From an uncultured Flavonifractor sp. (GTDB taxonomy: Bacteria > Bacillota > Clostridia > Oscillospirales > Oscillospiraceae): 46,059 bases of DNA. The notes under the pieces are model-generated. The model was not told the DNA's origin and ran no database searches. It was given only the letters and a program-made list of their open reading frames with translations. The translations under genes and the position numbers were made by a program. The stretch spans positions 1-46,059 of the forward strand of contig CANSQX010000005.1 of NCBI GenBank assembly GCA_947649225.1, read 5' to 3'. Below, one piece after another: positions 16,897 to 23,234 of this stretch (positions are counted from its first letter, which is position 1; the number at the start of each line of letters is the position of its first letter).

Positions 16897-17529
16897 TCAG
16901 GCCAGGAAGCTGGCGGCCACAGCGGCGGCGGTGGCCGCGTCGGGGGTGTAGGCGTCGGCGCCGATGGCCTCGCGGAACTTGTCGGTGACGGGGGCGCCGC
17001 CCACCATGATCTTCACCTTGTCGCGGATTCCGGCGGCCTTGGCCTGCTCCACGACCTCGCCCATGGCGGGCATCGTGGTGGTCAGCAGGGCGGAGCAGGC
17101 GATGATGGAGCAGTTATTGTCGATGGCGGCCTTCACGAAGGTCTCGGGGGCCACGTCGACACCCAGGTCGATGACCTCGATGCCCTTGCCCTCCAGCATC
17201 ATGCGCACCAGGTTCTTGCCGATATCGTGGAGGTCGCCCTTCACGGTGCCCAGGCATGCCTTGCCCAGGGGCTCCACACCGGCCTCGGTCATGTAGGGCT
17301 TGAGGATCTCGGTGCCGGCGTTCATGGCGCGGGCGGCCACCAGGACCTCGGGCACGAAGACCTCATTGTTCTTGAACTTCTCGCCCACGATGTTCATCCC
17401 AGCCAGCAGGCCCTCTTCCAGGATGACCTTGGCGGAAATGCCCTCCTCCAGAGCCTTGGGAACCAGCTCCTTGACCTGCTTGGCCTTGCCCTTCTGCATG
17501 GCGGTGGAAATCTCTGCTACGATGCTCAT
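16897..17529 (-). CDS. Methyltransferase-type corrinoid protein (MtaC/MtbC-like)
   Basis: A 210-residue cytosolic B12-binding protein. Residues 1-85 form the helical cap domain (EISTAMQKGKAKQVKELVPKAL..., LLAGMNIVGEKF, EVLVAARAM). The Rossmann-type cobalamin domain has D99-L-H101-D-I-G104, where His101 would be the lower cobalt ligand, S146-A-L and G177-G178. Such proteins carry a methyl group on cobalt between a substrate methyltransferase and a second methyltransferase. Neither enzyme is encoded nearby. GGAGGAG precedes ATG 17529. It lies 31 bases behind the PocR/AraC regulator gene, on the same strand. Confidence 0.92.
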   Translation of the reverse strand: MSIVAEISTAMQKGKAKQVKELVPKALEEGISAKVILEEGLLAGMNIVGEKFKNNEVFVPEVLVAARAMNAGTEILKPYMTEAGVEPLGKACLGTVKGDLHDIGKNLVRMMLEGKGIEVIDLGVDVAPETFVKAAIDNNCSIIACSALLTTTMPAMGEVVEQAKAAGIRDKVKIMVGGAPVTDKFREAIGADAYTPDAATAAAVAASFLA

Positions 17530-17560
17530 GACTGTTCTCCTCCATTATGTAAATTTTCTG

Positions 17561-18874
17561 TCACGACTCCGGAAGGCCCGGCCGCTCCTTATCGGCGGCC
17601 AGGCGGCCCCGGCGGGACCGGAATTTGGCGGGGGTCACGCCGGTTTGTTTCTTGAACACCTTGGTAAAATAGCTCTGGTCGTCAAAGCCCACCTGGGCGC
17701 AGATCTCCATGATCGAGGCGCTTCCCGCCAGCAGCAGGGCCTTGCTCCGGTCGATGCGCAGCTCGTTCAGGTAGGCGCTGAAGGTGCAGCCCATCTCCTC
17801 CTTAAAGACCTTGCTGAAGTAGGAGGGGGAGAGCCCCACATACCCCGCCGTGCTCTCCAGGGTGATTTTGGAGGGATAGTGGCATTTCATATAGTCAATG
17901 GCCTTGTAGATCACGTCCTTGTGCTTGATGTCCACCAGGTCGAAGACCAGATCGGTGAACCGCTCCATCACACGGGTGAGCCAGAAGACCAGATCCTCGC
18001 TGGATCGCAGCCGGTCGATCTCGCTGAGATAGCGGCAGTTGAGACCGAAAATCTGGTCCAGATCGCCGCCGCCGTCGGCCGCCGCCCGGGAGAGCACCAC
18101 CATGAGCTCCAGGGCCCGGGCCCGCATCAGGGTAAAATCTCCGCCGGTGGAGAAGAGGATGTGGCCGAGCAGCTCGTTGAGCAGCCGCCGGGCGGTGCTC
18201 TGGTCCCCCTCGGTAATGGCGGTGACCAGGGCGCGCTCCTTTTCGATGGGATAGGCGGGGGCGGCCCCCTCGTTTTTGAGCTGCTGGAGATAGGTGCCGA
18301 TGTCCTGCTGCTGGGCCAGCTCCCCCCGCTGGAGGAAGAGGGCGTGGCTGCTGTCCCCCACGTAGACCGAGGCTGCGAAGAGAAGGGCGGACAGATGGCT
18401 CAGCCGGGCGGGCTCCATCCGGGGGAAGGTATCCAGCACCGGGCGGAACTGCTCCAGGGCGTCATGGGGGATGACCCGGCCCGCCGGAGTGTCCCCGGCC
18501 AGGTAGTCCTCCGGGTCCATAATGAGGACCGGCCCGCCCACCAGGCTCCCGGCTGTCCGCCCGCCCACTATAATGGGGGAGGAGCAATAGGCCATGCCCG
18601 AGGGGCAGAAGTAGATATAGCGCCCGCCGAAGCGTTCGGCCTGATAGGCGCCGTAGAGGTGGACCTGTTCGCAGTGCGCGGCCCCGCCGGTGACTTGAAA
18701 GAGCTTATGGCAGAAGGCGCACGCCGAGCCGTTCAGGTTCCGTTCGTGGAGCAGGACGCCTTCTGCGGAAAAGAGCTTGCAGTTGACGCCGCAGGAGAGG
18801 GAGAAGGCGTCCACAATTTCCCGTGCGGCGCTCAGATCGAAGCTCACGTCATGATGCCTGGACGTCTTTTCCAT
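17561..18874 (-). CDS. PocR-sensor AraC-family transcriptional regulator
   Basis: A 437-residue regulator. Residues about 10-180 match the PocR ligand-binding domain, with a cysteine-rich part (C54-AFC57, then HCEQVHLYG, YFCPSG, YCSSP). Residues about 330-425 are two AraC-type helix-turn-helix motifs (ITLESTAGYVGLSPSYFSKVFKEEMG and IMEICAQVGFDDQSYFTKVFKKQTG, quoted in part). PocR domains are common on regulators of B12-dependent and C1 pathways, which fits the corrinoid gene 31 bases downstream. The ligand is unknown. AGAGG precedes ATG 18874. Confidence 0.9.
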   Translation of the reverse strand: MEKTSRHHDVSFDLSAAREIVDAFSLSCGVNCKLFSAEGVLLHERNLNGSACAFCHKLFQVTGGAAHCEQVHLYGAYQAERFGGRYIYFCPSGMAYCSSPIIVGGRTAGSLVGGPVLIMDPEDYLAGDTPAGRVIPHDALEQFRPVLDTFPRMEPARLSHLSALLFAASVYVGDSSHALFLQRGELAQQQDIGTYLQQLKNEGAAPAYPIEKERALVTAITEGDQSTARRLLNELLGHILFSTGGDFTLMRARALELMVVLSRAAADGGGDLDQIFGLNCRYLSEIDRLRSSEDLVFWLTRVMERFTDLVFDLVDIKHKDVIYKAIDYMKCHYPSKITLESTAGYVGLSPSYFSKVFKEEMGCTFSAYLNELRIDRSKALLLAGSASIMEICAQVGFDDQSYFTKVFKKQTGVTPAKFRSRRGRLAADKERPGLPES

Positions 18875-20694: not shown

Positions 20695-21453
20695 ATGGAA
20701 AACAAACGGATTCTGGTGGCGGATGCCAGCGAGGAATTTCGCCGCCTCTTTGTGGGGACGCTGGAGGAAGAGCCCGACATGACGGTCACCGGCGAGACGG
20801 GCGACGGCGAGGAGGCCGTGCGCATGGCTCGGGAGCTGGCCCCGGATGTGGTGGTTATGGACATGGTGCTGGCCCGGATGGACGGCATGGAGGTGCTCAA
20901 GATGCTGGACGGTCTCTCCCCCAGGCCGAAGATGCTGGTGCTCTCCAGCTTTGTACGGGGCAGCGTGGCCGATCTGGCCGCCCAGCTGGGGGCTGACTAC
21001 TTCATCATGAAGCCATGCCGGACGCCTGCGGTGGTGGAGTGTATCCGCCAGCTGGTGGATCAGGGCGGAGCGGACGGCGGGGCGCACAGCCCCCGGGCCC
21101 AGAATCTGGAGGGCGTCGTCACCGCTATCATCCATGAGATCGGGGTGCCCGCCCACATCAAGGGATACCAGTACCTGCGGGAGGCCATCCTCATTGCGGT
21201 GGACGACATGGAAGTCATCAACGCCGTGACCAAGATTCTCTATCCCGAGGTAGCCAAGCGCTTCGGCACCACGGCCAGCCGGGTGGAGCGGGCCATCCGC
21301 CACGCCATTGAGGTGGCCTGGGACCGGGGCGACCTGGAGACCCTGCAAAAGTACTTCGGCTACACCGTCTCCAACGCCAAGGGCAAGCCCACCAACAGCG
21401 AGTTTATCGCCATGATCGCCGACCGCCTCCAGCTCCAGCGGAAGGAGAAGTAA
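20695..21453 (+). CDS. spo0A: Sporulation master regulator Spo0A
   Basis: A 252-residue response regulator that commits the cell to sporulation. The receiver domain (about 1-120) has phospho-acceptor Asp56, Ser84/85 and Lys106. The second residue of the acidic pair is Ala11 (VADAS instead of VADDN), and the usual MP after the Asp loop is LA (D56-MVLARMDG). The effector domain is very conserved: [20 protein letters not shown] and [20 protein letters not shown], the latter the DNA-recognition region. The start is ATG 20695 with AAGGGGAG upstream. Confidence 0.97.
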
Positions 21454-21471
21454 CAGGGCGGGACGCAGAGA

Positions 21472-21505
21472 GGGACCGCAGGCGCCTTCCACGGCCTGCG
21501 GTCCC
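21472..21505 (+). terminator. spo0A terminator
   Basis: GGGACCGCAGGC (21472-21483) pairs perfectly with GCCTGCGGTCCC (21494-21505). A weak T-rich tail, CCTGTTTTGG, follows after a few bases. Confidence 0.7.
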
Positions 21506-21571
21506 TCCGTCCTGTTTTGGGGCACCTCCGGCCCGTGGGGCGCATAGAGTGGGGAAAGGAGGAATTTGCTC

Positions 21572-21994
21572 ATGTCTCACGCTGTATCCCCCCTCCCCCG
21601 GGTGCTGCTGGAGGAGCGTCCGGCCGCCGCGGCCCTCCTCTGCGGAGACGGGGCCCACCCGGACCTGGCCGGCGAGGCGCTGTTCTACCCCTGGCAGTCC
21701 GGAACCCTGGCCCTCCTGCGGCTGGCGGGCCTGCCGGAGGACGGACTCTACCCCCTCCACATCCACCGGGAGGGGACCTGCCGCACGGGAGGCGACGTGC
21801 CCTTCCACTGCGCGGGCCCCCGGCAGGCCCCTGGAGAGGTCCAGCTGGCCCCGGTCCTGGGGTGCGGGGGCGCGGCTTTCTCTGTCTGCTACACCGGCCG
21901 CTTTACTCCCGATCAAGTTCTGGGCCGGACCCTGGTGCTCCACGCCCCGCAGGGGGCGGGCCGTCTGGCCTGCGGGGTGGTCGGTCCCCCCTGA
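21572..21994 (+). CDS. Superoxide dismutase (Cu/Zn family)-like protein, zinc site missing
   Basis: A 140-residue protein with the outline of Cu/Zn SOD: LHIHREGTC (His63, His65, Cys70), His79, then FTPDQVLGRTLVLH (His124) and RLACGVVG (Arg131, Cys134). These match the four copper ligands, the disulfide pair and the active-site arginine of the family. The zinc ligands, normally two further His and an Asp between His79 and the F..R loop, are replaced (PRQAPGEVQLAPVL). It has no signal peptide, so it would be cytosolic, unusual for SodC. AAAGGAGG lies nine bases before ATG 21572. Its last 92 bases overlap the 3' end of the opposite gene. Activity is inferred, not certain. Confidence 0.72.
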   Translation: MSHAVSPLPRVLLEERPAAAALLCGDGAHPDLAGEALFYPWQSGTLALLRLAGLPEDGLYPLHIHREGTCRTGGDVPFHCAGPRQAPGEVQLAPVLGCGGAAFSVCYTGRFTPDQVLGRTLVLHAPQGAGRLACGVVGPP

Positions 21995-23234
21995 CCATGG
22001 CCCGGCGGTACAGGGCCTCGGCCGCAAACTGGAGCTCGGTGGGGTTGAAGCCCGGCTCCAGCGGGTAGATAAAATAGGTGTTGTCCGGGGTGGACAGGGT
22101 GATGCAGGGGCCCTTGCCCCGGTAGTCGTACTCGGTGTGGATGGAGAAGGTGGCCCCGGGGGGAAAGCGGAGGGTCTTGGGGGCCTGCTCCCCGTAGTCG
22201 GTGAGGGTGAGGGCGAAGCCCGCGCCATCGTGGCGCAGCCGCCCCTCCCCCAGATCGATAAAATTCACCGCGTTGGGCAGGGACTCGATATGGACCCGCT
22301 GGTCCAGCCCGTAGGTCCCCCCCTCGATGGCGGCCTCCACCTGGGTCCGCTCCCACTCGTACCAGTCGGGGATGTGGGGAAAGCGGGCGGGGCGGCCCGC
22401 CCCCTCCAGGCGGCCGTACTCGTCCATGCGCCAGCGGGCGCCGCAGGCGGTACAGAAGAGCTCCGCCCCCCGGGAGGCCATGTGAAAGGCCGTCCCGCAG
22501 TCCGCGCAGCGGTAGAGGGGGAGCTCCAGCCCCTCGGCCCGCCAGGGGGCCCGGACGGCCATGTGCCGCTCCGCCTGCCAGGCGTACTCGTCGTAGGACA
22601 GGGCCCTCTGCACGGCTTCCTGGATCGCCCCGGCGCTGAGGGCGGCGGCCTCCTCCGCCGTGAAGAGGCGGGAGAGGGTGGCCTCCAGCCGGACGCCCCT
22701 CCGGCGCTTCAGATTCCAGATGGGGGACTGTAGATAGTTCCCCCGCATCTGGAGAACCACCACCGGGACCTTCAGGTACTGGATCAGCTTCCCCACCGAG
22801 GCGGGGAGCTCCGAGCTGGTGCCAACATTGGCGTACCGGGCCTCCGGGTAGAGCACCAGGATCCCCCGGCGCTCCATGCACCGCCGGATGTTCTTCACCA
22901 GGGCCAGGTCGTTGACAAACTTCCGGGTGCCCAGACAGCCGATCTGCCGGTAGGGCCACTCGCCGAAGTTCTCGAAGCCCTCCAGCTCGGAGACATAGTT
23001 GGCCCGGTGGGGAAAGAGGCACAGGGGCGTCACATAGAAGTCCATAAAGGCGTGGTGGGTGCCCAGCACCAGGAAGGGGGGCTTTAACCCTTTCATCCCC
23101 ACCTTATGGATGCGCAGCCGCCCCGGCCGGGTGGCCAGCCAGCACCACAGCCACAGCAGGGGCATGATCAGCAGGTTCTGCTTGGGCGGCACCCGCGCCC
23201 GGTCGAAGGGGGTGGGGTCGATGGGCCGCTTCAT
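21903..23234 (-). CDS. PlsC-type acyltransferase with zinc ribbon
   Basis: A 443-residue membrane-associated protein. Residues 20-35 are hydrophobic. The acyltransferase block has H60-HAFM-D65 (the HX4D motif) and LYPEARYANVG (128-138) in place of the usual PEGTRS. A four-cysteine zinc ribbon follows at C243, C246, C261 and C264, then a ~170-residue C-terminal domain I do not recognise (EWERTQVEAAIEGGTYGLDQRV...). It would transfer an acyl group to a lipid such as 1-acylglycerol-3-phosphate; the real acceptor is unknown. The start is read as ATG 23234, overlapping the permease stop by 4 bases. The tail overlaps the SOD-like gene convergently. Confidence 0.8.
   Translation of the reverse strand: MKRPIDPTPFDRARVPPKQNLLIMPLLWLWCWLATRPGRLRIHKVGMKGLKPPFLVLGTHHAFMDFYVTPLCLFPHRANYVSELEGFENFGEWPYRQIGCLGTRKFVNDLALVKNIRRCMERRGILVLYPEARYANVGTSSELPASVGKLIQYLKVPVVVLQMRGNYLQSPIWNLKRRRGVRLEATLSRLFTAEEAAALSAGAIQEAVQRALSYDEYAWQAERHMAVRAPWRAEGLELPLYRCADCGTAFHMASRGAELFCTACGARWRMDEYGRLEGAGRPARFPHIPDWYEWERTQVEAAIEGGTYGLDQRVHIESLPNAVNFIDLGEGRLRHDGAGFALTLTDYGEQAPKTLRFPPGATFSIHTEYDYRGKGPCITLSTPDNTYFIYPLEPGFNPTELQFAAEALYRRAMVRGDRPPRRPDGPPPAGRGAPGSGPELDRE

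Follow-up and report, generated by a model that had tools for sequence, protein, structure and literature searches.

In reduced SOD1, Cu(I) is held by three histidines (H46, H48 and H120), the bridging histidine being released. To our knowledge, eukaryotes have well-described SOD derivatives devoid of metal sites (CCS, the Cu-only SODs and CSRP), while in bacteria only a few inactive SodC-like proteins, with no established role, have been reported. The open-site Cu-only SODs, all known examples of which are extracellular, combine an intact four-histidine copper site, including an equivalent of the bridging histidine, with the absence of a zinc site, an abbreviated loop VII and a Glu/Asp remnant (PMC13017621). 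Domain II of human CCS, which has three of the four copper histidines, binds no copper, yet Cu(I) can bind after disruption of its zinc site or loss of the zinc (PMC13017621). Removal of loops IV and VII from SOD1 leads to total metal loss (PMC6536575), and in simulations of the human H63R variant of SOD1 the copper is released (PMC8446448). Bacillus subtilis YojM, a SodC-like protein in which the copper site is broken, is inactive (PMC10432803); according to the title of its structure paper, it lacks two copper ligands.

The window, i.e., the whole stretch of 46,059 nucleotides that was analysed, derives from a gut-type anaerobe near Flavonifractor, whose source is one metagenome-assembled genome (MAG; 80.7% complete, 157 contigs) and whose genus is represented by that one genome. 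It contains the following gene of the SodC family:

21572..21994, + strand: SodC-derived open reading frame of 140 amino acids, predicted to form a loop-deleted Cu/Zn SOD barrel (sequence, alignments, model)
21555..21562, + strand: Shine-Dalgarno sequence AAAGGAGG, 9 nt 5' of the ATG at 21572 (sequence)

The reading frame is a real gene, given its 140 codons, its Shine-Dalgarno sequence, a third-position GC content of 0.86 and a branch omega of 0.41 outside the loops. Its GC content by codon position is 0.81/0.57/0.86, the third value resembling that of the neighbouring genes. As the initial annotation had stated, the 140-residue product has the listed histidines, cysteines and arginine at their given positions and carries no export signal, the N terminus being free of any hydrophobic stretch by inspection. 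It is a single domain with no fused Atx1-like copper domain. Sequence searches with the protein alone are weak: its Pfam match to Sod_Cu reaches 16.2 bits, under the cut-off of 28.9, a sequence search of the PDB (phmmer) gave weak matches, and single-protein scans of the genome and viral contig collections gave none. A pattern scan was built on a closer 6-row alignment and not on the more diverse 18-row one. In the whole-genome search of the same family, 46 of 300 genomes yielded homologues (best E 8e-40), the closest named one being the SodC of Flavonifractor plautii ATCC 29863 (L144; 57.7% identity). SodC is thus patchy in the family, and of the 20 genomes in the genus to which the nearest relative belongs, 3 have it. 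A search of the 80.7% complete host genome for a second, intact SOD gave no passing match to Sod_Cu, Fe/Mn SOD or superoxide reductase, a weak negative given that the Sod_Cu profile misses the window protein as well.

The surroundings of the gene are as follows:

20695..21453, + strand: spo0A, the upstream neighbour of the SodC-like gene; the association is not conserved
21454..21519, + strand: strong terminator-like hairpin separating the SodC-like gene from spo0A (-49.3 kcal/mol, z -5.8)
21903..23234, - strand: convergent acyltransferase-like gene, overlapping the SodC-like 3' end by 92 nt

The gene does adjoin spo0A, which lies upstream of it, but the link to sporulation that the initial annotation drew from this position finds no support. 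In relatives, spo0A has other neighbours with no SodC adjacent, and SodC has a different location: in one genome (G050) it adjoins a gene read as proC, and in both F. plautii and G050 an HPr-kinase-like gene lies no more than a few kb away. The lack of the pairing in relatives, together with the hairpin that separates the two genes, speaks against a sporulation operon. On the other side, the acyltransferase-like reading frame is about 20 codons longer than in relatives and runs antisense over the SodC-like 3' end (21903-21994, - strand). In the overlap, its tail does not show the GC3 signature expected for that frame, and the extension is probably a stop-codon shift, judging from the sequence. 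Elsewhere in the window (16897-18874, - strand), a methyltransferase-type corrinoid-binding protein adjoining an AraC-type regulator was identified by reading.

The metal ligands were compared by aligning the window protein with 17, 68 and then 82 relatives, and from the order-level matches only those fetched as loci were used. The relevant features are:

21758..21766, + strand: His63-Ile-His65, corresponding to the human SOD1 copper ligands H46 and H48; without variation among canonical relatives (alignments)
21779..21781, + strand: Cys70, putative disulfide cysteine equivalent to human C57 (alignments)
21806..21808, + strand: His79, the copper ligand proposed in the initial annotation; the aligned position varies freely
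21818..21859, + strand: remnant of the zinc loop (loop IV), residues 83-96; the bridging histidine is Arg84 or deleted, two zinc histidines are deleted and the zinc aspartate is aligned with Gln91
21941..21943, + strand: His124, equivalent to copper ligand H120 (alignments)
21944..21964, + strand: remnant of loop VII, the electrostatic loop, from which about 10 residues, PDDYxSQP among them, are deleted (alignments)
21962..21973, + strand: Arg131 to Cys134, equivalents of human R143 and C146 (alignments)

In the alignments with 68-82 relatives, three of the four copper histidines (63, 65 and 124) are kept, as are Cys70, Cys134 and Arg131, and the earlier reading of these last three as the disulfide pair and the active-site arginine is borne out by their canonical positions in the alignments. 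The zinc-ligand stretch is indeed gone: all four ligands of the zinc site (three histidines and one aspartate), invariant in the canonical relatives, are lost. The column of the bridging histidine, in the motif G-H-[YF]-[ND]-P (human H63), contains histidine in 82 of the 82 other SodC proteins and Arg84 in the window protein, while the pairwise alignment to F. plautii SodC places a deletion there. Depending on gap placement, the column of the zinc aspartate is occupied by Gln91 or by a leucine, and Glu89 is placed either close to or exactly at the Glu of the Glu110/Asp113 remnant of the Cu-only SODs. The deletions comprise about 7 residues in the zinc loop and about 10 in the electrostatic loop, both in frame and with no stop codon; the second, a feature that had passed unmentioned in the initial annotation, includes the aspartate that links the two metal sites. 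A zinc loop hidden by a frameshift was rejected, as the other frames of the region contain neither HYNP nor HPxHAGDLP.

The initial annotation had aligned four histidines with the copper ligands, naming free variation of these residues among homologues as one observation that would speak against it. His63, His65 and His124 do not vary and are canonical, but His79 does: its column, in the motif PF-x-CAG, contains alanine in 32 of the 68 relatives, serine in 14, proline in 8 and histidine in 4, and histidine occurs there also in some relatives with a full metal site. All three alignments (17, 68 and 82 relatives) speak against His79 as the fourth copper ligand, the true position of which is Arg84 or deleted.

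The distribution of the losses is far from even. Forty columns show a conservation of at least 90% among the 82 relatives. The window protein keeps 25 of them and differs at 15, while the relative that deviates most after it differs at 6. Inside the two loops 13 of 16 such columns are lost, versus 2 of 24 elsewhere (Fisher p 4e-6, the zones having been chosen after seeing the alignment), a concentration that appears unlike random decay. Codon differences from the F. plautii gene fall mostly on the third position (41, 32 and 72 at positions 1, 2 and 3), and outside the loops the window branch has an omega of 0.41 (bootstrap 0.22-0.82, with 0.65% of the replicates reaching 1 or more), a branch average that includes the time before the deletions. 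The remaining codons are under purifying selection, averaged over that branch. The barrel has accumulated 0.76 substitutions per site since the shared ancestor, versus 0.34-0.41 in the three nearest relatives, and this faster change would also fit relaxed constraint or slow decay. In the FastTree phylogeny the window protein appears as a derived SodC, sister to the F. plautii enzyme, support for the exact sister being modest (0.69).

The structure prediction that the initial annotation had called for, an AlphaFold2 model from the 18-row alignment, yielded a confidently predicted SOD barrel (mean pLDDT 86.8), with values of about 95 in the strands and 65-69 in the remodelled loop that bears His79. 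Structural comparison by VIA-align matched the model to SOD1 (Z 14.9, rmsd 2.5 Å, 116 residues) and to domain II of CCS (Z 14.8), and also, with low rmsd, to human SOD1 engineered to lack loops IV and VII (4bcz; Z 14.3, rmsd 1.6 Å, 99 residues) and to SOD1 devoid of zinc ligands (3hff; Z 14.4, rmsd 1.8 Å, 100 residues). SOD5 is absent among the 50 matches listed for the model, an absence from which nothing is concluded.

Set beside the described kinds of SOD, the window protein shares with canonical SodC its descent, a predicted Greek-key β-barrel and, by alignment, the disulfide cysteine pair and the active-site arginine, but is devoid of the complete set of four copper histidines including the bridging one, of the zinc site and of the electrostatic loop. 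The cytosolic F. plautii SodC, which has the same barrel, HIH motif, cysteine pair and arginine and likewise no signal sequence, retains all copper and zinc ligands as well as the electrostatic loop. The fungal Cu-only SODs (such as Candida SOD5) and animal CSRP resemble the window protein in the absent zinc site and the shortened loop VII, yet they are active, extracellular proteins with four copper histidines and, in the active forms, Glu110/Asp113. The interpretation given in the initial annotation stands in part: the protein belongs to the SOD family, lacks the zinc site and an export signal and comes from a relative of anaerobes. A Cu-only SOD is not supported: the copper site is incomplete (Arg84), the Asp position is Gln91 or Leu, and the N terminus suggests a cytosolic location. 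As the bridging histidine is absent, the intact four-histidine site that defines the class is missing, which places the protein outside it. Domain II of CCS has the same fold and also three of the four copper histidines; human CCS, however, keeps the zinc site, has lost a different histidine (the H120 equivalent), which makes it an imperfect parallel, and is fused to other copper-binding domains such as the Atx1-like one. YojM, compared by description only, is likewise a Firmicute protein of SodC fold with a broken copper site and is inactive; there, two copper ligands are missing, whereas the window protein has lost one of the four, the bridging histidine, along with the zinc site, and has kept three. 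The engineered SOD1 variants 4bcz, 4bd4 and 3hff are close structural counterparts of the model, loops IV and VII having been removed in the first two, but these are laboratory constructs with total metal loss, while the natural protein retains three copper histidines and the cysteine pair.

The reading we favour, with a probability of roughly two in three, is that of a SodC pseudoenzyme, derived from an SOD by loss of the two loops and possibly endowed with a weak three-histidine Cu(I) site. In its descent from the cytosolic Cu/Zn SOD of Flavonifractor-like Oscillospiraceae, two in-frame deletions, one of the zinc loop with the bridging histidine and one of the electrostatic loop, have left a disulfide-capable β-barrel with the copper histidines 63, 65 and 124. 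Because the bridging histidine and the zinc site are absent, cycling between Cu(II) and Cu(I) would be inefficient, and, also in view of the copper release from H63R SOD1 and of the copper-free domain II of human CCS, the protein is probably not an effective dismutase. Weak binding of Cu(I) in the reducing cytosol is conceivable, since the kept trio corresponds to the histidines that bind Cu(I) in reduced SOD1, and since CCS domain II binds Cu(I) upon zinc loss; the protein may then serve as a copper sink or hand-off protein. The copper-carrier role suggested in the initial annotation may to this extent be retained. Alternatively, the protein could be a metal-free scaffold or binding protein. 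Besides the faster change of the barrel and the imperfect CCS parallel, two points count against the pseudoenzyme: the evidence comes from one MAG, a second species with the same deletions being absent from the comparison set, and the three copper histidines, both cysteines and the arginine are more than a pure scaffold needs.

The same residues would be expected in an unconventional zinc-free dismutase, in which His79 of the remodelled loop IV completes the set of copper ligands and the open site functions in the manner of the fungal Cu-only SODs, which likewise lack the zinc site and electrostatic loop (PMC13017621). The loop with His79 is short and modelled with low confidence, which leaves some room for such an arrangement. 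It is nevertheless quite improbable, as His79 is homologous to no ligand, its column being mostly Ala, Ser or Pro and including His where the site is full, the bridging histidine has given way to Arg84 or a deletion, the Asp characteristic of active Cu-only SODs is aligned with Gln91 or Leu, and the known open-site enzymes all act outside the cell (PMC13017621). Inactivation is a somewhat more serious contender, though still an unlikely one: the two deletions would recently have ended the function of a gene in slow decay, the rest of which is still undegenerated. Such a fate would suit a variant seen in a single genome, its faster barrel evolution and an often dispensable gene of patchy occurrence, and a degenerate full-length copy lies close to a canonical one in another genome of the family (see below). 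Decay, however, would hardly be expected to produce two separate deletions, each of them in frame and within an active-site loop, nor to spare 25 of 40 conserved columns, including all kept ligands, and a strong ribosome site, nor does it agree with an omega of which so few bootstraps reach 1. That assembly or sequencing of the MAG dropped about 7 and 10 codons is extremely improbable in spite of the fragmented assembly, as the deletions are multiples of three and residues in what remains of the loop are substituted too, with Arg for His and Gln for Asp, changes that a gap in the assembly would not produce.

SodC derivatives of related kinds occur elsewhere in the family. In the genus g45, a SodC-derived reading frame (L169; G192:C60:6181-6540, - strand) has lost both loops, all metal ligands and both cysteines, and in that genome (G192) is unrecognised by Pfam. 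The loop-less barrel is present in 4 of the 16 species of the genus (L169-L172), the other copies being 63-76% identical to that of G192, always beside the same symporter-like gene, with pairwise omega values of 0.21-0.32 among the four species. Its model is again a predicted SOD barrel (pLDDT 88.4), best matched by loop-deleted SOD1 structures (4bd4: Z 14.8, rmsd 1.9 Å, 96 residues), and the conservation of its sequence indicates that the bare barrel is clearly maintained. In G131, 6 kb from the canonical copy, the degenerate full-length paralogue (L140/L173; G131:C1:487574-488065, + strand) has QIY in place of HIH and lacks the first cysteine. Like the window protein, the g45 barrel appears to be a SodC-derived gene maintained after deletion of the zinc and electrostatic loops, but none of its metal ligands and neither of the disulfide cysteines is left. 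Stripping of the SodC metal loops has thus happened at least twice in the family. The window protein is plausibly an intermediate form relative to the g45 barrels and, belonging to a different clade, not their ancestor. A wider and more tentative hypothesis is that Oscillospiraceae have repeatedly cut both metal loops and retained the barrel for a new function other than dismutation, with the window protein as an intermediate with a three-histidine site that acts as a cytosolic Cu(I) buffer or carrier, and the g45 protein the metal-free end state.

The present locus thus provides a natural SodC barrel without both functional loops, which mirrors the laboratory construct made for SOD1 folding studies. 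The purifying selection on the ligand-less version in the sister genus, where it presumably serves as a scaffold or binding protein, lends weight to the idea that a selectable function other than dismutation can reside in the barrel itself. The window protein may be either copper(I)-binding or purely structural.
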